DNA of 64,000 bases from the NCBI GenBank assembly GCA_964059195.1, contig CAXKWD010000009.1, positions 84,727,432 to 84,791,431 on the forward strand, given 5' to 3'. Within the stretch, counting starts at the first letter, position 1. Every line of letters begins with the position of its first letter. Position numbers and translations under genes: made by a program. This stretch comes from Ectobius pallidus. Its lineage: Eukaryota > Arthropoda > Insecta > Blattodea > Ectobiidae. Of the stretch, positions 1,121 through 63,048 are shown piece after piece. The notes beneath the pieces are model-generated. The model ran no database searches. It was not told the origin of the DNA and saw nothing but the letters and a program-made list of their open reading frames with translations.

Positions 1121-2702
1121 TTCTCAAAGGTGTAATCATAGGAATGGTTTAATTGGTAAATTGATAAATTCTACCAAGTGTGAAATTCCTCCCTCTTCGG
1201 CTTTTCATCAATATTTGTCCTAATATTAAACAATTAATTCTATTGAACAAAATTTGTGTGTGTCATGACACCTTTGGCATCACCTATGTCCACGCATGTG
1301 ACTGACAATATTAATTTACGATATGGTATTATGTACAATTTCTTGCGCCAGTTTTTTAAAATTATAATTTGGGCCATTAGTGGATAATTATCTCATGATA
1401 TTGTTAAGAGTTGATGAGATGTTACATTAATATTGTCTCTAGAAGATGTCTCTCCAATTTACTAAGACCCTAGACAGTTGTGTAATATGCCGCTGTTTCC
1501 TCATTACGCCCTGCCTGGAGTAATTAACGCTCTAACAATACGCTCGTTTTATGAGGGCGTCAAGAACGACCTCGTTATTATCTATCTATCGTTAGCACCT
1601 TGTTCGTGTTTTAGTAAGGTGGCTGCACAAAGATAATAGTCCCGTTAACAAAGAAAATACTGATTCTTATGAGCGTTACTTGAACTCAATATCTGTAACT
1701 CAATTTAAAATCGAATCTGGAGATCTGGTACCAGAGATTACCAGAACATCCACTAATGTGAACGTTCATCTTTCTATATTTAGGGCCTGTATTACTACCT
1801 GCCGACAATTCCTCCCGATACGTGACTTCCAGATAGCTTTACTGCTATCGGCAAGAACGCAGTAAAATTTTGTGAAATGATCCTTAGGTCGTTGAGCAGA
1901 GAGATGTGTTTGTTGTAGTTCGGTAGGTCTCCGCTAGGTGCGGCAGCTCGGATTTGTTTTTGTACAATTAAATTACATAACATATCGTTTTAAGTGCATT
2001 AATCGATTTGTGCAATTCTATTTCATTCATATTTGAGCCTAAAATTACATTTTTATGTAAATTAAATCTTCCAGCATCAATTCTGATATTCAGGTGGCCA
2101 GGAAGCTTCGGAGTACTGCCATCTTGTTTCAACCAAGCTTCCCTAACTAGAAGCCGTTCCATCGTTCTTGAAACACGGGTTTGGATGCGCAGTGGAGAAA
2201 AATGTTTCACTGTTGGGGAGGAAATATTGATTTTTCTAAACCACGTGCTTTTCCAGTGCTTCTATTGGTGTAGAGGGCTGAGGAGTGACAAGGACAGCAG
2301 TTAGCAAGTAAATCATCCCTCCCTATTCTGCGCGAGATTTCTAGGTCATGTTTCAACTGAAATGGAACAGACTCTAGCAGTTGGTACTTTGTCAGCCACT
2401 CCATCCTCCTGCTACCTTACCTTATATGGAAGTTGACTTCCCAGACAGATTTTGTCAGGAGATCATAATACGCAATTCTTGGCTAACTTCCAGCAAGGGT
2501 CCCTATCTGGCAGATAAATATGATATCAGGTGGTCGTCGCACAGGTCCTTAGTGTTATATCCTCATTGTGACTGTTTTAACGAGTCCGCAACACGTTCCG
2601 GTGGACTAATAAAAGTCTTATTAATTGCGAATGTCGAGAAACAGAGAATCCATGTTGACCTTTGCCTTAAGCACACCACAAGGCTCTGAAAGACGTTCAC
2701 GT
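1121..2702. other. Unassigned; higher-GC block at 2.08-2.69 kb
   Basis: 1121-2000 shows nothing recognisable. From about 2080 to 2690 the DNA is less AT-rich and both strands have moderate open frames (plus 2008-2304 and 2381-2689, minus 1968-2210 and 2207-2404). None contains a motif I can name, and the frames overlap antisense to one another, so this could equally be an old repeat or a decayed coding fragment. Confidence 0.4.
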
Positions 2703-2737
2703 CATATAGAGTATTGTGAGGCACACTAAGTTAGGTA
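2703..2737 (-). repeat. Fragment of palindromic tRNA-SINE spacer
   Basis: The sequence GTCATATAGAGTATTGTGAG continued by GCACACTAAGT is the reverse complement of the central spacer of the elements at 18.4 and 23.1 kb (there CACTACTTAGTGTGCCTCAT). Here the spacer is in the opposite orientation to the tRNA-like head 340 bp downstream, with another SINE lying between them. Confidence 0.5.
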
Positions 2738-2766: not shown

Positions 2767-3013
2767 CACTGTAAAGTAAAGTAAAGTGGTCCCTATACAG
2801 GCCATGGAGGCCCAGAGGGTTGCAGGAGATTGAGGCTCCCAGATTTTGGACATTCGGCACCTGAAGATGGTAAGGTTGTCAGCCTTTACGCACCTGCCGC
2901 CTTTACCCCGAGGATTGCTCCTGGTACTCATTTCTGTTAAAGGCTGAGTCGACCCCAGGGCCATAGTGCCAACAGATGGATTAGGCCAATTGAAAAACTC
3001 CAACAACCTCATG
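2767..3013 (-). mobile_element. SINE-like repeat, family A, minus strand
   Basis: The block reading ATTGCTCCTGGTACTCATTT, then a GTCGACCCCAGGGCCATAGT core and ACAACCTCAT recurs almost unchanged at 18.08-18.18 kb, so it is an interspersed repeat. The left end carries a GTAAAGTAAAGTAAAGT run, which on the minus strand is a simple-sequence 3' tail. The tRNA-like part seen in the 18 kb copy is missing here, so this copy is 5'-truncated. I could not find a target-site duplication. Confidence 0.6.
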
Positions 3014-3044
3014 TATGTAAATGTCTTTTAGTGAGATAAATTAA

Positions 3045-3225
3045 GGGTAATTAGTCGTAGAAGAGAGAATCAAACTCTGACTTGCTCAGTTGGTAGAGCA
3101 TCGGCACGTGACGCCGAAGGTCGTTGGTTCGAATCCCAGTGTCAGAGGAATTATCCTAAAATATTCTCATGTAATGTTCGACAGAAACAATATTCTGTGG
3201 TTCTTGAACACATACCTACATCTTA
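3045..3225 (+). mobile_element. tRNA-headed SINE (single head)
   Basis: A tRNA-like head (3075-3147) is followed by a body ending near CTACATCT that matches the right arm of the 23.1 kb element (ATATTCTCATGTAATGTYCR, then AACAATA..CTGTGGTTC). Upstream, TAATTAGTCGTAGAAGAGAG matches the region just inside the 23.1 kb spacer, except that the 'TTCCATCTGGCGCTGTG' segment is deleted. This copy has lost or never had the opposing arm. Confidence 0.65.
3075..3147 (+). pseudogene. tRNA-like sequence, anticodon GTG (His), C33
   Basis: It folds as a cloverleaf of 73 nt with a perfect 7 bp acceptor stem (CTCTGAC/GTCAGAG), a D-arm GCTC..GAGC and an anticodon stem TCGGC/GCCGA. The loop is ACGTGAC, so the triplet is GTG, but position 33 is C where tRNAs have T. 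The T stem has mismatches although the box B motif GGTTCGAATCC is good. A Pol III promoter (boxes A and B) is plausible; a working tRNA is not. Confidence 0.7.
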
Positions 3226-4370: not shown

Positions 4371-5050
4371 TGGGTGCCACTTCTTAAAGACTTTTTTCCC
4401 CAAGAACTGCCTATACCTGCTGCCACCCTAATCCTCTTCGACCTGTCAATCAGTGAATAGAAAGGTAATTAGGCGTATTCACACTTGTCTGCAGTCCAGA
4501 AAAATGTTGCCAAATACGTACCACAGCACGTTTACTTCACGTGAGAAGCGTTGAATGACAGGGGCAACACTGGGGAGATCCATGCGACTACAAGAGCACC
4601 TGTTCTTTGTCGCTGACGGTGCAGATTTTCGGATTAGGGAACAATACTATTATATTCTTTTGTAGATAGATGATTGTTTGGGACGAGGTCTTCTTAAAAT
4701 GGCACGAACAGTACCCCCCCCCCCCCCCAGACCTTACACTCGGTCAACTGCTTACTGTTCATGCCATTTTAAGAAGTCCTCGTCCCAAACCATCGTCTAT
4801 CTACAAAATAATATAATATCATTGTTCCCTAATCCGAAAATCTGCACCGACAGAGAACAGGTACTCTTGTAGTCGCGTTGGTTTTCCCGGTGTTGCTTCT
4901 GTCATTCGCCACTGCACTGCTCAAGTCAACGTGCTGTGGTACGTTGGCAACAATGTACTGGACGCAAGACACTTGTGATTATGCCTAATTCCTTTCTATT
5001 CCCCGATTCACAGGTCGAAGAGGATTAGAGGATTAGAAGTGTCACCCACA
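4371..5050. repeat. Long imperfect inverted repeat (~300-340 bp arms)
   Basis: The left arm (4371-4713) is repeated in reverse complement as the right arm (4753-5050). Matching blocks include GGACGAGG..CTTCTTAAAATGGCA against TGCCATTTTAAGAAGTCCTC, GGTGCAGATTTTCGG against CCGAAAATCTGCACC, GCTACAAGAG-type blocks, TACCACAGCACGT against ACGTGCTGTGGTA, and AATCCTCTTCGACCTG against CAGGTCGAAGAGGATT. The loop of about 39 bp holds a run of 15 C. The left arm has about 40 extra bases near 4390-4430. The arms differ by scattered substitutions and small indels. I see no target-site duplication. It could be a foldback element, a fused pair of element copies, or a hairpin-RNA locus. Confidence 0.85.
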
Positions 5051-6170: not shown

Positions 6171-6215
6171 CAGTATTGTCAAATTGACACGTGCAGTCAG
6201 AATGAAAAATTCAAT

Positions 6216-6287
6216 GCCAAAGCCGGGATTTGAACCAGAATCTTCGGCTCTCCGTGCAGATGCTCTAACCAACTGAGCTACCATGGC
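6216..6287 (-). pseudogene. tRNA-like head (left arm), triplet GGA, C33
   Basis: On the minus strand it reads GCCATGGTAGCTCAGTTGG, then TTAGAGC, and ends in CCCGGCTTTGGC. Acceptor, D and T arms are recognisable, with box A and box B (GGTTCAAATCC). The anticodon loop is ACGGAGA, giving GGA after a C at position 33. It is nearly identical to the right-arm head. Confidence 0.7.
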
Positions 6288-6430
6288 AACGGGCCGGTAC
6301 TTAAGCCCGGGTCTTATTAAAGTACTTACAGGTTGTAAGTCGCCACTGGGTTAGTATCTCATATTGAGAACGCCTGGTGGTATACTGGGATTGTGAGTCA
6401 GTTGGAGAATTTAATGTTGTACCGGCACTT

Positions 6431-6502
6431 GCCATGTAGCTCAGTTGGTTAGAGCGTCTGCACGGAGAGCCGAAGATTCTGGTTCAAATCCCGGCTATGG
6501 CA
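6431..6502 (+). pseudogene. tRNA-like head (right arm), triplet GGA, C33
   Basis: It starts GCCATGTAGCTCAGTTGGTT, has box B GGTTCAAATCC and ends CCCGGCTATGGC. The anticodon loop ACGGAGA is the same as in the left arm, again with C33. The acceptor stem GCCATGT/CTATGGC is only partly paired. I read it as the Pol III promoter of the element and not as a decoding tRNA. Confidence 0.7.
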
Positions 6503-6678
6503 TTGAATTTTTCATTCTGACTTCACGTGTCCATCTTAGCCTACACACGGCCAGTGTGAAAGAATTATCATTCCAATATTGTCAAACTTTGTATCAGGAA
6601 GGGTTTTGTTTTTAAGCCAAGTCAAGACATTATCTCTGATATTAAATGATGTTTCACATTCTTACTAATACTCTATTA

Positions 6679-18019: not shown

Positions 18020-18235
18020 CAGGGCCATCAGGTGTCTGCAGGAGAAATGTTTATCTAAGCTGTCACGGCCGCATTTACCCCCCAGGATTGCTCCTGGTAC
18101 TCATTTCTGTTAAGAGGCTGAGTCGACCCCAGGGCCATAGTGCCACCAGAAGGATTAGGCCGATTGAAAAACAACAACCTCATCGGGGAACGGGGATCGC
18201 ACCCGTGACCTTCCGGTTTGTAGCGCAGCACCAGA
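18020..18235 (-). mobile_element. SINE family A, copy with tRNA-like head, minus strand
   Basis: It shares the ATTGCTCCTGGTACTCATTT and GTCGACCCCAGGGCCATAGT blocks with 2.77-3.01 kb. Reading the minus strand, GTAGCGCAGC..ACCGG-AGGTCACGG and GGGTGCGATCCCC form the end of a tRNA-like head with a degenerate box B (normally GGTTCGATCCC). The body follows. The 3' tail is not clean. Confidence 0.6.
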
Positions 18236-18414
18236 TAATAATGTAGCTTATACCAAATCATTCCAGGACAGGGGCCAGTAAGTATTAAAGTATTAAATAA
18301 ATAAAATAAAAAATACCAAATTATGGTGTATACATAAACGTAAAGAATACCACAGTGCAGAAATATATTGCACTTTTTAAATCATGTTATGTGTAAAAAA
18401 AAACTACCTTGTAT

Positions 18415-18732
18415 GTAAGATAGATATATAAGCATTCATGAACCACAGATTATTGTCTCTGTTGGACAATACATGAGAATATTATAGGAGAAATATTCCT
18501 CCGACACTGGGACTTGAACCCAGTACTACTTAGTGTGCCTCACAGTCCTGCATATGACATATCTTGTCCGTCTGTGAGGTAGACCATTAGGGCAATCAGT
18601 CATAGGAGAGAGGTTCCATCTGGCGCTGTGAATTGAACTTCGGTTTATCTCAGTTGGTAGAGCATTGGCGCGAATAGCCAAAGGTCCTGGGTTCAAGTCC
18701 CAGTGTCGGAGGAATTTTTCTCCTATAATATT
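18415..18732 (-). mobile_element. Palindromic tRNA-like retroelement, family 2, copy 1
   Basis: It starts GTAAGATAGATATATAAGC, the complement of the 3' tail of the 23.1 kb copy, and ends in the right arm at ATAATATT. The spacer (ACTACTTAGTGTGCCTCACA to ACCATTAGGGCAATCAGTCA) is the same as in the 23.1 kb copy. The left tRNA-like head is truncated by a deletion between its T arm and the spacer; the right head (18638-18711) is complete. CTACCTTGTAT occurs at both borders (18404-18414 and 18733-18743); 9 to 11 of these bases are the duplication. Confidence 0.8.
18638..18711 (+). pseudogene. tRNA-like head, triplet GAA, C33
   Basis: D arm CTCAGTTGGTAGAG, perfect anticodon stem TTGGC/GCCAA, loop GCGAATA with C at position 33, perfect T stem CTGGG/CCCAG and 3' acceptor GTCGGAG. 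The triplet would be GAA (Phe). Boxes A and B look intact. Confidence 0.7.
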
Positions 18733-18744
18733 CTACCTTGTATA

Positions 18745-22959: not shown

Positions 22960-23045
22960 ACAACACCCATGTCCTAGGCGGGGCTCGAACCCACAGTCTC
23001 CTTACCCACAGCTCCAAAGCCTTAGCTACCGGGGCTAAGGAGACA
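22960..23045 (-). mobile_element. tRNA-like SINE head, minus strand
   Basis: On the minus strand it reads GCCCCGGTAGCTAAGGCTTT, GGAGCTGTGGGTAAGGAGAC and GTGGGTTCGAGCCCCGCCTA: a box A-like and a good box B (GGGTTCGAGCCCC). CATGGGTGTTGTAAGGAAAA continues on the 3' side as the SINE body. The length of the body is not clear. Confidence 0.5.
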
Positions 23046-23095
23046 TTTTGAAATCAAAACGCATTTTAGTTGAGAATATTATAGGAGAAAAATTC

Positions 23096-23169
23096 CTCCG
23101 ACACTGGGACTTGAACCCAGGACCTTTGGCTATTCGCGCCAATGCTCTACCAACTGAGCTAAGCCGGAG
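23096..23169 (-). pseudogene. tRNA-like head (left arm), triplet GAA, C33
   Basis: Full cloverleaf on the minus strand: acceptor CTCCGGC/GTCGGAG (one G-T pair), D arm GCTC..GAGC, anticodon stem TTGGC/GCCAA, loop GCGAATA with C33, and T stem CTGGG/CCCAG. This is the best-preserved head in the window, and Pol III boxes A and B appear intact. Confidence 0.75.
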
Positions 23170-23341
23170 TTCAATTCACAGCGCCAGATGGAACCTCTCT
23201 CCTATGACTAATTGCCTATGACTAAAGCACTACTTAGTGTGCCTCATAGTACTGCATATGACATAACTTGTCTGTCTGTGAGGTGGATCATTAGGGCAAT
23301 TAGTCATAGGAGAGAGGTTCCATCTGGCGCTGTGGATTGAA

Positions 23342-23415
23342 CTCCGGCTTAGCTCAGTTGGTAGGGCATTGGCGTGAATAGACAAAGGCCCTGGGTGTAA
23401 GTCCCAGTGTCGGAG
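23342..23415 (+). pseudogene. tRNA-like head (right arm), decayed
   Basis: It matches the left arm but carries GTAGGGCATT, GTGAATAGACAA and GGGTGTAAGTCCC, so the D stem, anticodon stem and box B all have substitutions. The two arms of the same insertion therefore decay independently. Confidence 0.7.
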
Positions 23416-23865
23416 GAATTTTTCTCCTATAATATTCTCATGTAATGTCCAATAGAGACAATAATCTGTGGTTCATGAATGCTTATATATCTATCTCGCA
23501 TTTTAGTTGTTTACTCATAAAAACAATTTGATCCAAATTCTAGTTATACGAAAGAAGTGGTTCTCGAGATATACCTTGGTACGTTTGGTACTGCGCCATA
23601 ATAACGCTATAGGCGAATTCTTCTGGGGGCACTGTGTTCGTAGGGTCGTCTTAGCAGCGGGCTGAAGTGAGTGACGCCTGAGGATAATTGGTGTCTGCCG
23701 ACTGTCTAAAAATTGGGCGTCTAAACGTACAGATTCCCTAGAGCATCCTAGTACTATATGCAGGGAGTACTTTGCTATAGGCTACTTGACTTGCTAACGA
23801 TCACACTTACTATTGAAAGGTACCGGTAGTAGCAAATCTTGAATATCGGGGTCCAAACCAGTTTA

Positions 23866-29238: not shown

Positions 29239-29543
29239 AACCCCCCCCCCCATTGATTAAAAAAAAGGAAAATTATATAATTTTTTTAAGTCTGCCCATA
29301 AATTACTTAATACATGTATAAAGCGTGGGAAGCTTAAAACTCGTTATTTTGCGTCTTAATTTTTAAAATTTTCGGGGGGGAGGACCCCCGGAAGCTTAAA
29401 ACTCGTTATTTTGTATCTTAATTTTTTAAATTTTCCGGGGGTGGACCCCCGGACCCCCCCCCCCTCCCTGGGGGGTATTCCATACCCCCCAGACCCCGCG
29501 GATGTTATAACCCCCCCATATGGTCGGCCTGGTTACGCCTATG
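29239..29543 (+). mobile_element. G/C-rich hAT MITE, left-truncated copy
   Basis: From CCCCCCATTGATTAAAAAAA to the right end GGTCGGCCTGGTTACGCCTA+TG it matches the complete copies at 57.0 and 62.7 kb. The left terminal CATAGGCGTACCGAGG is missing. Two internal units starting GGAAGCTTAAAACTCGTTAT lie at 29328 and 29390. Confidence 0.85.
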
Positions 29544-30707: not shown

Positions 30708-30715
30708 TACCTTGT

Positions 30716-31173
30716 GTCCACCGCTGTGGCAAAGGGGATGCATTCGCTCTTCTCACGCAGCGGGCCTGGGTTCAAATCCTGGTCGGGACAAGTTACCTGG
30801 ATGAGGGTTTTTCCGGGTTTTTTCCTCACCTGTGAGACAAATTTCGTGTAACTTTAGGCCCCCTTCTGGTCTTCTGATATCACTTGGCCGTCATTATCTT
30901 CTTCATCCCATCCTCGCCTTGTTTGGAGTATGTGTGTGAATGGTGTGTCTCGTCCTATGTGTTCGTGTTGTCTCGGAAGTGGCCCCGGCATTGGCTGATC
31001 ACTCATCCGGGAGGCCCTCCATGTCCTTGTCTGGTCAAAAAAGTATGTGTGTGATCCATAGATAATCCCTCTCCCGACAGGTCGCGGCCCTGTAAGGCCC
31101 GGGTGGCTTGGGTTGCTTAATGTTCCTATATGAGAGTGGTGAAACTAAGGTAAAGAAAGAAAGAAAGAAAGAG
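30716..31173 (+). mobile_element. Long tRNA-headed SINE, family B, copy 1
   Basis: The head CACCGCTGTGGCAAAGGGGA with box B CTGGGTTCAAATCCTGG is followed by a body (CTGGATGAGGGTTTTTCCGG, CCTCCATGTCCTTGTCTGGT, GGTCGCGGCCCTGTAAGGCC) and a (GAAA)n tail. The octamer TACCTTGT flanks it at 30708-30715 and 31174-31181. The same family is inserted on the minus strand at 58.84-59.31 kb. Box A here is weaker (GTGGCAAAGGG) than in the second copy (GTGGCTCAGGG). Long frames on both strands are passive. Confidence 0.9.
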
Positions 31174-53835: not shown

Positions 53836-54699
53836 CGAGGTGTGATAAAAAAAAATACGGTGAATAATTTTATTACAAACAAAGTAATAAGCTTACTTAG
53901 AATTTGAATTAGTCTCCTTCAAAGTACTGTCCTTGTCTAGCGATGCACTTGTCCCAACGTTGAATCCATGACTGGAAGCATTCCTGGAAGGCTTCTTTCG
54001 GAAGGGCGTTTTTTGCTGCTTTGTCGTGGCCATCTCAATGTCGGGAATGGTGTCAAAACGTTTTCCTTTTAGCACGATTTTTATTTTTAAAAAAAGAGCC
54101 AAAGTCACAGGGTGCTAAATCTGGTGAGTAAGGCGGATATGGAAAGACAGGAATACTTTTTCCGCCAAAAACTCGCGAATCAGAAGCGAGGTGTGGCACG
54201 ACGCGTTGCCGTGATGAAGAAGGAAGCCACTGGCCCATTTTCTGGTCTCTTTCTTAGATGTTCAGTTCTTTGGTAAGCGCTCAAGTAGTCATTCGCCTGT
54301 TTAAACGAACAAGGGCTGACACTTTCGGACGTTTTCATCTGTTTTTGAGGTCGACGGACGTCCCGACCCTTGACGCCTTCAACCGACTCATTTCCGCTTT
54401 TAAATCGCTCATACCGCTTGTAAACAGTCTTCTTAGTTGCCACATCATCGCCATCCACTGATTCCAACATATCATGAGCTTCTTTGGCATTTTTTGTAAC
54501 TTAAAACAAAACTTAATGTTGACGCGTTGTTCGAAATCCAGGATGCGCGACAAACACAGTCTGGAAGCTGACAAACGAGTCAGAACGTGTTCACACTTGA
54601 CCCAGCCTATCTCAATAGATCAGATATTAGATCAAATTGATGTAGCCTCAGCAGTTTCTCATAAAAAAATCATTCACCGTATTTTTTGATCACACCTTG
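53836..54699 (-). pseudogene. Mariner-like element with both ends, degenerate transposase
   Basis: Inverted ends CGAGGTGTGATAAAAAAA..TACGGTGAAT and ATTCACCGTATTTTTTGATC+ACACCTTG sit between TA dinucleotides (53834-53835, 54700-54701). The minus strand encodes, across frameshifts, an N-terminal helix-turn-helix region (DFEQRVNIKFCFKLQK, TVYKRYERFKSGNESVEGV) and a C-terminal region with PPYSPDLAPCDF, holding the third catalytic Asp. The middle section with the first two Asp residues is deleted: the unit is 864 bp against about 1.3 kb for full mariners. No functional protein is possible. Confidence 0.9.
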
Positions 54700-57013: not shown

Positions 57014-57320
57014 CATAGGCGTACCGAGGGGGGGGGGTTTGGGGGTTTAAACCCCCCCCCCATTGATTAAAAAAAGAAAAATTGTATAGTTTTTTAAGTC
57101 TGCCCATAAATTACTTAATACAAGTATAAAGCGTGGGAAGCTTAAAACTCGTTATTTTGCGTCTTAATTTTTTAAATTTTCCGGGGAAGGGATCCCCGGA
57201 AGCTTAAAACTCGTTATTTTGCATCTTAATTTTTAAAATTTTCCGGGGGAGGACCCCCTCTCCCCCCCCCCCGCGGATGTTATAACCCCCCCCCATATGG
57301 TCGACCTGGTTATGCCTATG
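57014..57320 (+). mobile_element. G/C-rich hAT MITE with exact 8 bp duplication (2-unit copy)
   Basis: CATAGGCGTACCGAGG and GGTTATGCCTATG are the ends. ACTGTAAC flanks both sides exactly (57006-57013, 57321-57328). Next to the left end, long G-runs (GGGGGGGGTTTGGGGG) face C-runs across TTTAAA. Two internal units start GGAAGCTTAAAACTCGTTAT at 57136 and 57198. No coding capacity. Confidence 0.95.
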
Positions 57321-58841: not shown

Positions 58842-59307
58842 CGTTCGTTCGTTCGTTTTCGTAGTTTTACCTCTCCCTTTTTTAGGATTTAAGCGACCCA
58901 AGCCACCCGGGCCTTACAGGGCCGCTACCTGTCGGGAGAGGAATTACCTTTGGATCACATACATACTTTTTTGACCAGACAAGGACATGGAGGGCCTCCC
59001 CGGATGAGTGATCAGCCCAATGCCGGGGCCACCTCCGAGACAACACGAACACATAGGACGATACACACCATTCACACACACACACTCACTCACTCACTCA
59101 GAACAAGGCGAGGATGAGGATGAAGATGATAATGACGGCCAGATGATATCCGGGGACCACAAGGGCCTAAAGTTACCTGACATTTGTCTCATAGGTGAGG
59201 GAAAACCCCGGAAAAAACCTCACCTAGGTAACTTGTCCCGACCAGGAATCGAACCCGGGCCCGCTGCGTGAGAGGATTGGACGCATCCCCTGAGCCACAG
59301 CGGTGGA
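58842..59307 (-). mobile_element. Long tRNA-headed SINE, family B, copy 2, minus strand
   Basis: On the minus strand the head TCCACCGCTGTGGCTCAGGG (box A GTGGCTCAGGG) and CCCGGGTTCGATTCCTGG (box B) is followed by the same body as the 30.7 kb copy and an (AACG)n tail. CTACTGTATAATT, 13 bp, flanks it exactly (58829-58841, 59308-59320). It is inserted at the outer border of a Tigger-like end. A CA-rich stretch inside (59071-59100) expanded relative to the other copy. Confidence 0.95.
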
Positions 59308-59320
59308 CTACTGTATAATT

Positions 59321-62651: not shown

Positions 62652-63048
62652 CATAGGCGTACCGAGGGGGGGGGGTTTGGGGGTTTGAACCCCCCCATTG
62701 ATTAAAAAAAGGAAAATTGTATAATTTTTTAAAGTCTGCCCATAAATTACTTAATACAAGTATAAAGCGTGGGAAGCTTAAAACTCGTTATTTTGCGTCT
62801 TAATTTTTAAAATTTTCCGGGGGAGGATCCCCGGAAGCTTAAAACTCGTTATTTTGCCTCCTTAATTTTTAAAATTTTCCGGGGGGGGGGGGACCCCTGG
62901 AAGCTTAAAACTCGTTATTTTGCATCTTAATTTTTTAAATTTTCCGGGGGAGGACCCCCGGACCCCCCTCTCCCTGGGGGGTATTCCATACCCCCAGACC
63001 CCGCGGATGTTATAACCCCCCCATATGGTCGGCCTGGTTACGCCTATG
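62652..63048 (+). mobile_element. G/C-rich hAT MITE with exact 8 bp duplication (3-unit copy)
   Basis: CATAGGCGTACCGAGGGGGG and GGCCTGGTTACGCCTATG, flanked exactly by CAAGAGTG (62644-62651, 63049-63056). Three internal units start at 62772, 62833 and 62899 (spacings 61 and 66 bp), one more than in the other two copies. This is the most intact of the three members. Confidence 0.95.

Follow-up and report, generated by a model that had tools for sequence, protein, structure and literature searches.

Head-to-head palindromes of a tRNA-bearing repeat unit in Ectobius pallidus, probably formed by Penelope-type reverse transcription

Penelope-like elements (PLEs) are among the described systems that come closest to the repeats reported here. 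A study on rotifer Penelope elements describes copies that carry an inverted pseudo-LTR at the 5' end and that occur head-to-head and as partial tandems; one inverted copy bears a 31-bp tail, duplications are 8-10 bp long, and palindromes are found at the inverted joint (PMC3846280). For the head-to-head copies, the same study discusses self-priming on an antisense template, which the authors leave unsettled. Inverted pseudo-LTRs with short 3' extensions also appear in a curation guide (PMC8969392). According to the literature, a minimal hammerhead ribozyme is usual in the pseudo-LTR. Work on Blattella germanica describes nine SINEs (Sbg1-9), whose A boxes begin 11 bases into the element and whose duplications are 10-15 bp long (PMC9191728). 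A paper on animal retrozymes describes small tandem units with hammerheads and a model of their spread via circular RNA (PMC7761336). Twin priming on a second RNA is set out in an snRNA paper (PMC4476161). In our search of the literature, neither a tRNA-bearing repeat of the PLE type nor a palindromic SINE came up, which, with subscription journals poorly covered, does not amount to absence. No match emerged when collections of viral, phage, plasmid, and prokaryote sequences were searched by pattern and by similarity.

The locus studied here lies in a window of 64,000 nucleotides, the whole stretch of DNA that was analyzed (Ectobius pallidus assembly GCA_964059195.1, contig CAXKWD010000009.1, positions 84,727,432 to 84,791,431). 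A sequence-only reading of this window had proposed two near-identical tRNA-like heads on opposite strands, with arms of about 100 bp, enclosed by a 10-bp duplication, and both proposals hold. Between positions 6174 and 6586, two tRNA-like arms lie head to head on opposite strands (6183-6300 and 6419-6534), with 94% identity over 118 bp and 96% complementarity over the central 99 bp. Their heads, at 6215-6287 (minus strand) and 6431-6502 (plus strand), have canonical, intact A and B boxes, and score 43.1 and 35.2 bits, respectively, against the Rfam tRNA model, both above the gathering score of 29. A T5 run is found a few bases after each head, at 6205-6209 (minus strand; similar to a Pol III terminator) and at 6508-6512 (plus strand), in agreement with the earlier expectation that the right-hand Pol III promoter alone would not give the whole unit. 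The predicted RNA fold of the palindrome reaches -247 kcal/mol, versus -109 kcal/mol in shuffles (z -23).

Both arms are bracketed by TATTGTCAAA, present on the plus strand at 6174-6183 and 6577-6586; the match widens to 12 of 13 bases, the left 13-bp form spanning 6171-6183 with one mismatch. Within the window, random pairs of places shared an exact 10-mer in 0.1-0.4% of draws, and an exact 10-mer abutting both ends within 2 bases was seen in 0.008% of random draws. Because neither arm alone has an inner duplication (best 7 of 10 matches), two separate SINE insertions side by side were ruled out. When placed on the repeated unit of 298 bases described below, the left part is an inverted fragment covering unit positions 259 to 142 (6183-6300, minus strand), the short outer end of which (S) lies at 6184, and the right part is a direct unit covering positions 29 to 298 (6303-6573, plus strand). 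The right arm outruns the left by about 40 bases, and this extension, the tail (6535-6576, plus strand), is present at the long outer end (T) only. The first part of the direct unit had been taken for a unique spacer, but it is the leader of the repeated unit and is present at many other places. The palindrome is real, and the phenomenon is broader than had been stated.

The window also contains a second family, distinguished by its head, which forms two head-to-head loci, each with its own exact duplication. Relative A (23060-23509) is flanked by 13 bp, CGCATTTTAGTTG, at 23060-23072 and 23497-23509 (plus strand), and consists of an inverted unit fragment that ends at the S end (23073-23216, minus strand; head 23096-23168) and a direct unit with tail (23217-23496, plus strand; head 23343-23415). 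Relative B (18404-18743), of the same family, is flanked by 11 bp, CTACCTTGTAT, at 18404-18414 and 18733-18743 (plus strand), and consists of a tailed fragment cut inside the tRNA (18415-18523, minus strand) and another fragment with leader and head (18639-18711) that finishes at the S end (18525-18732, plus strand). In both, the end point of the short arm agrees to within two bases. Leader and tail share a strand in one of the two loci and are on opposite strands in the second, which already argues against their being copies of one palindrome. The arms of A differ in their private changes (0 versus 7, p 0.016), which could point to two templates or to error-prone copying; we give this little weight, since units of the same locus are on average closer to each other than to units of other loci. 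Directly beside relative A, at 22981-23037 (minus strand), lies another tRNA-like promoter pair with 2 mismatches, which perhaps belongs to a further SINE family.

An old relative (F3) comprises an inverted leader fragment (2656-2731, minus strand) and a direct unit (3013-3212, plus strand; head 3076-3147), and a duplication was looked for around it and not found. By eye, its leader seems to be interrupted at about 2776-3011 by another repeat (TGAGTCGACCCCAGGGCCATAGTG...), which also occurs at 18060-18190. Other features of the window include a 600-bp near-complete palindrome at 4428-5028 (79% over 621 columns), which has a poly-C center and no tRNA, and which is foldback-like with no duplication visible by eye. 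A unit of 61-66 bp (GGAAGCTTAAAACTCG...) forms tandems of two to three copies at 29328-29453, 57136-57252, and 62772-62962, and a remnant of a Mos1-like transposase is found at 54183-54500 on the minus strand (Pfam HTH_48, 26.2 bits).

The 2.12-Gb host genome yielded 3,180 first-look candidates with the palindrome as query (40 scored, 177 matches) and 3,065 with the second family as query (40 scored, 98 matches). The loci analyzed represent, for each family, the 40 top-scoring of about 3,000 candidates; 80 were examined, five rows were dropped, and 75 were kept, with boundaries called automatically. The queries held both arms and favored two-armed copies with a similar joint, so that the genome-wide share of two-armed copies cannot be read from the 64 head-to-head loci among these 75; among the 23 loci that came from one-unit matches, 13 were head-to-head. 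The mobile unit is 298 bases long in the family of the palindrome (family U) and 314 in that of relatives A and B (family A), and is made up of a leader, the tRNA, a short stretch, and the tail. Family U has no poly-A or regular microsatellite tail, and family A ends in TATATATCTATCT. In complete heads, the A box was found in 70 of 78 (U) and 72 of 75 (A), and the B box in 74 of 78 (U) and 65 of 75 (A).

In addition to the 64 head-to-head loci, 11 had a single orientation and none was tail-to-tail, and wherever both orientations occurred, the order was always minus then plus. Same-strand neighbors were present in 34 of the 75 loci, and 47 of the 52 joints between them were seamless, head-to-tail. 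The outer ends of the head-to-head loci were of one S and one T type in 55 cases, T/T in 1, S/S in 0, and unclassified in 8. The S end falls close to unit position 258, and the T end at 298 (U) or 314 (A), giving an offset of 40 and 56 bases, respectively, and the S end was found on either side (right 13 and left 12 in family U; right 16 and left 14 in family A).

Exact duplications of 10-16 bp flanked 47 of the 75 loci, including 46 of the 64 head-to-head ones, compared with 0.2% of 2,000 mispaired controls; the remaining 28 loci had no 10-bp duplication. Paralogous empty sites were found for 5 of the 47 joined flanks, in the form of alignments that cross the join and follow an unbroken copy of the matched repeat. 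Three of these were ungapped around the join, and two had a gap or simple sequence near it. Two-armed copies with spacer and their own duplications thus exist elsewhere in the genome, as do empty sites at the predicted join, both as the sequence-only reading had anticipated. At C8:57881210-57932268, a stretch of about 50 kb contains several long arrays of the 298-base unit, each in one orientation, and the repeat may be on its way to becoming satellite DNA there.

The inversion points varied widely: 61 distinct pairs of unit positions were found in the 64 head-to-head loci, with one pair occurring three times and one twice (five loci sharing). This variation between loci makes it likely that each palindrome arose at the time of its insertion. 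The inner joint showed a gap or overlap of at most 5 bases in 42 of the 64 loci. In family A, the sum of the two inner coordinates was nearly constant, which we judge to be a probable effect of the query, as a one-piece alignment needs a similar joint. In both families, units diverged by 3.0% within a locus and by 4.7% between loci, and none of 1,000 permutations reached so low a within-locus value; the closeness of units from one locus indicates that a single RNA, or closely related RNAs, usually gave rise to both arms.

Two groups of elements from the same genome provide a comparison. A search for GIY-YIG domains gave 8,401 first-look candidates, of which 150 were scored, with 149 matches. 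At one match, a 756-aa open frame contains both RVT_1 and GIY-YIG, and therefore has the make-up of Penelope-like elements. Neighboring matches within 10 kb, among the 149 scored, formed 27 pairs, of which 26 were minus-plus, 1 was minus-minus, and 0 were plus-minus. Ten of the 26 minus-plus pairs were examined, chosen for short spacing. In nine of these, the duplication measured 10-13 bp and one of the two ends was longer by 33-41 bases, on either side; for the tenth (L089), no duplication was found.

The other group is an ordinary SINE, two copies of which are present in the window (58842-59308 and 30716-31171), in each of which the head is preceded by 11 bases at the 5' end and the tail is a simple repeat. 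Its genome search gave 40 matches at 40 places, with about 50 bases of flank, which say little on companions; 19 of the 20 copies examined were single copies directly enclosed by a duplication, again with about 50 bases of flank each. The duplication of one ordinary-SINE copy (30708-30715) and that of relative B (18404-18414) have TACCTTGT in common, probably by chance.

The sequences flanking the duplications differ between these groups. AA was found at flank positions -3 and -2 in 23 of 46 tRNA repeats, 6 of 9 Penelope-like elements, and 0 of 19 ordinary SINEs; by Fisher's test, both the repeats (4e-5) and the Penelope-like elements (2e-4) differ from the SINE, while the repeats and the Penelope-like elements do not differ from each other (0.48, with 9 Penelope-like sites only). 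TT at the far flank was present in 21 of 46 repeats, 4 of 9 Penelope-like elements, and 2 of 19 SINEs (0.009 and 0.06), and a T precedes the duplication in 15 of 19 SINEs. The target signature of the tRNA repeats can be written as AAN, a duplication of 10-16 bp, and NTT, similar to that of the host Penelope-like elements at the 9 sites analyzed. Taken together with the common anatomy, this signature suggests that the tRNA repeats are likely mobilized by Penelope-type machinery.

The anatomy that the repeats have in common with Penelope-like elements consists of head-to-head inverted terminal copies, partial tandems, an extra tail at one end, and short target duplications. In contrast, the tRNA repeats are about 300 bases long, their loci hold only copies of the unit, with no gene for a reverse transcriptase (RT) or nuclease, and they carry a tRNA-like gene. 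The offset of 56 bases in family A, as opposed to 33-41 in the Penelope-like elements, also counts against the link. Comparison of the end regions of the repeats with the tails of two host Penelope-like families gave no significant similarity (239 to 741 of 1,000 shuffles were at least as good), and one of eight controls, the leader of A, scored better (0.006). A motif, CTTCAC..TCCATC, that by eye seemed common to these tails and the repeats was rejected as not significant. No hammerhead ribozyme was found in the units of the window, nor in the loci L027, L061, and L073, and scanning the window for the pattern returned 7 matches, where 3.8 were expected, none of them inside units. For the units this is a weak test, as Rfam called no hammerhead in four host Penelope-like loci either. 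In one host Penelope-like element (L081), a hammerhead-like core (CTGATGA...GAAA) can be seen by eye at about 1257-1284 and in its mirror, where Rfam made no call. Because the tRNA repeat has no gene and, within the comparisons made, neither a hammerhead nor common ends, we do not class it as a Penelope-like element, yet it works like one.

We consider it probable that the palindrome consists of two head-to-head pieces of the 298-base tRNA-bearing unit, laid down by a Penelope-type RT that copied the RNA of the unit from both nicked target strands. The seamless succession of units suggests an RNA template that is multimeric or circular. Each of the two nicks in the target would prime a cDNA of its own, at points on the RNA separated by about 40 (or 56) bases; these cDNAs would run in opposite directions, each stopping at its own point, and would then be joined at their ends, frequently at a few bases common to both. 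The machinery would be supplied in trans by the Penelope-like elements of the host. The tRNA part may act as a promoter or as a signal for RNA processing.

The sequence-only reading had instead proposed a palindromic master element, the hairpin RNA of which is copied whole. It was right in describing a mobile, many-copy, non-autonomous family, and the fixed end of the short arm in many copies, the very strong predicted hairpin, the full-length two-armed alignments to other copies, and the few loci with a common inversion point would all suit a master. Nevertheless, copies of one master would have a common inversion point, and the 61 distinct points in 64 loci contradict this model in our sample, as do the leader on either strand relative to the tail (A versus B), the head-to-tail arrays, and the copies in one orientation, so that we consider it highly improbable. 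We give equally little credence to an origin at the DNA level, either as a MITE with long terminal inverted repeats or as a tandem satellite rearranged by recombination and inversion, even though the inverted repeats are long and some longer unit arrays exist (C8:57.88-57.93 Mb). The duplications vary from 10 to 16 bp and one end is longer than the other; tail-to-tail pairs, an order that recombination would also give, number 0 in 64 loci; and the loci are dispersed, with separate duplications and some empty sites. A MITE, which should have matching terminal inverted repeats and a duplication of fixed length, was rejected on account of the variable duplications and the two unlike ends (S and T) of the repeats.

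An ordinary tRNA SINE moved by a LINE, with frequent twin priming in which the second nick primes on the RNA and yields an inverted 5' piece, would match the overall geometry. LINE twin-priming products likewise have an inverted piece inside one duplication, and the joints of the present repeats, with few shared bases, would also fit. Twin priming is common for L1: in one survey 639 of 2,068 L1 copies were 5'-inverted (PMC2912911). In the same source, however, only 1 of 5,554 Alu copies was. Moreover, the outer ends of the present repeats are mostly fixed, with a constant offset, their pieces have a long overlap that covers the tRNA, and their units run in tandem from 298 to 1 without a seam. 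The repeats do resemble the tRNA SINEs Sbg1-9 in being non-coding and numerous, in having A and B boxes in a tRNA-like head, and in the length of their duplications. They differ in that 121-136 bases precede the A box in three window pieces, as against 11 in Sbg1-9 and in the two ordinary-SINE copies of the window, in the T5 run after the head, in the lack, in family U, of a poly-A or regular microsatellite tail, and in a target signature unlike that of the ordinary SINE in the same genome. Overall, we regard this explanation as unlikely. A retrozyme-like element, in which a small circular RNA is reverse-transcribed as multimers and the tRNA replaces the hammerhead, concerns the template and is compatible with copying by a Penelope-type RT from both nicks. 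The seamless, non-coding tandem units of about 300 bases with duplications would fit, and animal retrozymes are small non-coding tandem units with repeats of 150-300 bp, thought to spread by reverse transcription (PMC7761336). The tRNA repeats differ from them in their tRNA-like gene and inverted pairs, no hammerhead was detected in the units tested, and the RNA circles are putative; we consider a retrozyme-like template possible, if rather doubtful.

With copying by a Penelope-type RT as the preferred reading, we tentatively put forward, without going so far as to call it probable, that these repeats represent a new non-autonomous class: a tRNA unit that borrows a Penelope-type RT, and the circular or multimeric RNA of which is copied at both nicks (double-ended target-primed reverse transcription), such that each insertion gains its own palindrome. 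Such a class would be the Penelope counterpart of a SINE, with the tRNA taking the role that the hammerhead has in PLEs and retrozymes.

The integration of Penelope-like elements, and whether it involves self-priming, is a matter that the authors of the rotifer study leave unsettled (PMC3846280). With about 3,000 candidate copies per family, the tRNA repeats offer many insertions, and the 75 examined permit counts of inversion points, joints, and offsets beyond what full-length Penelope-like elements allow. If the link is true, Penelope-like elements would be accompanied by small parasites that depend on them, in the way that SINEs depend on LINEs, and reverse transcription, rather than a transposase or recombination, would be the origin of many palindromes in such genomes.
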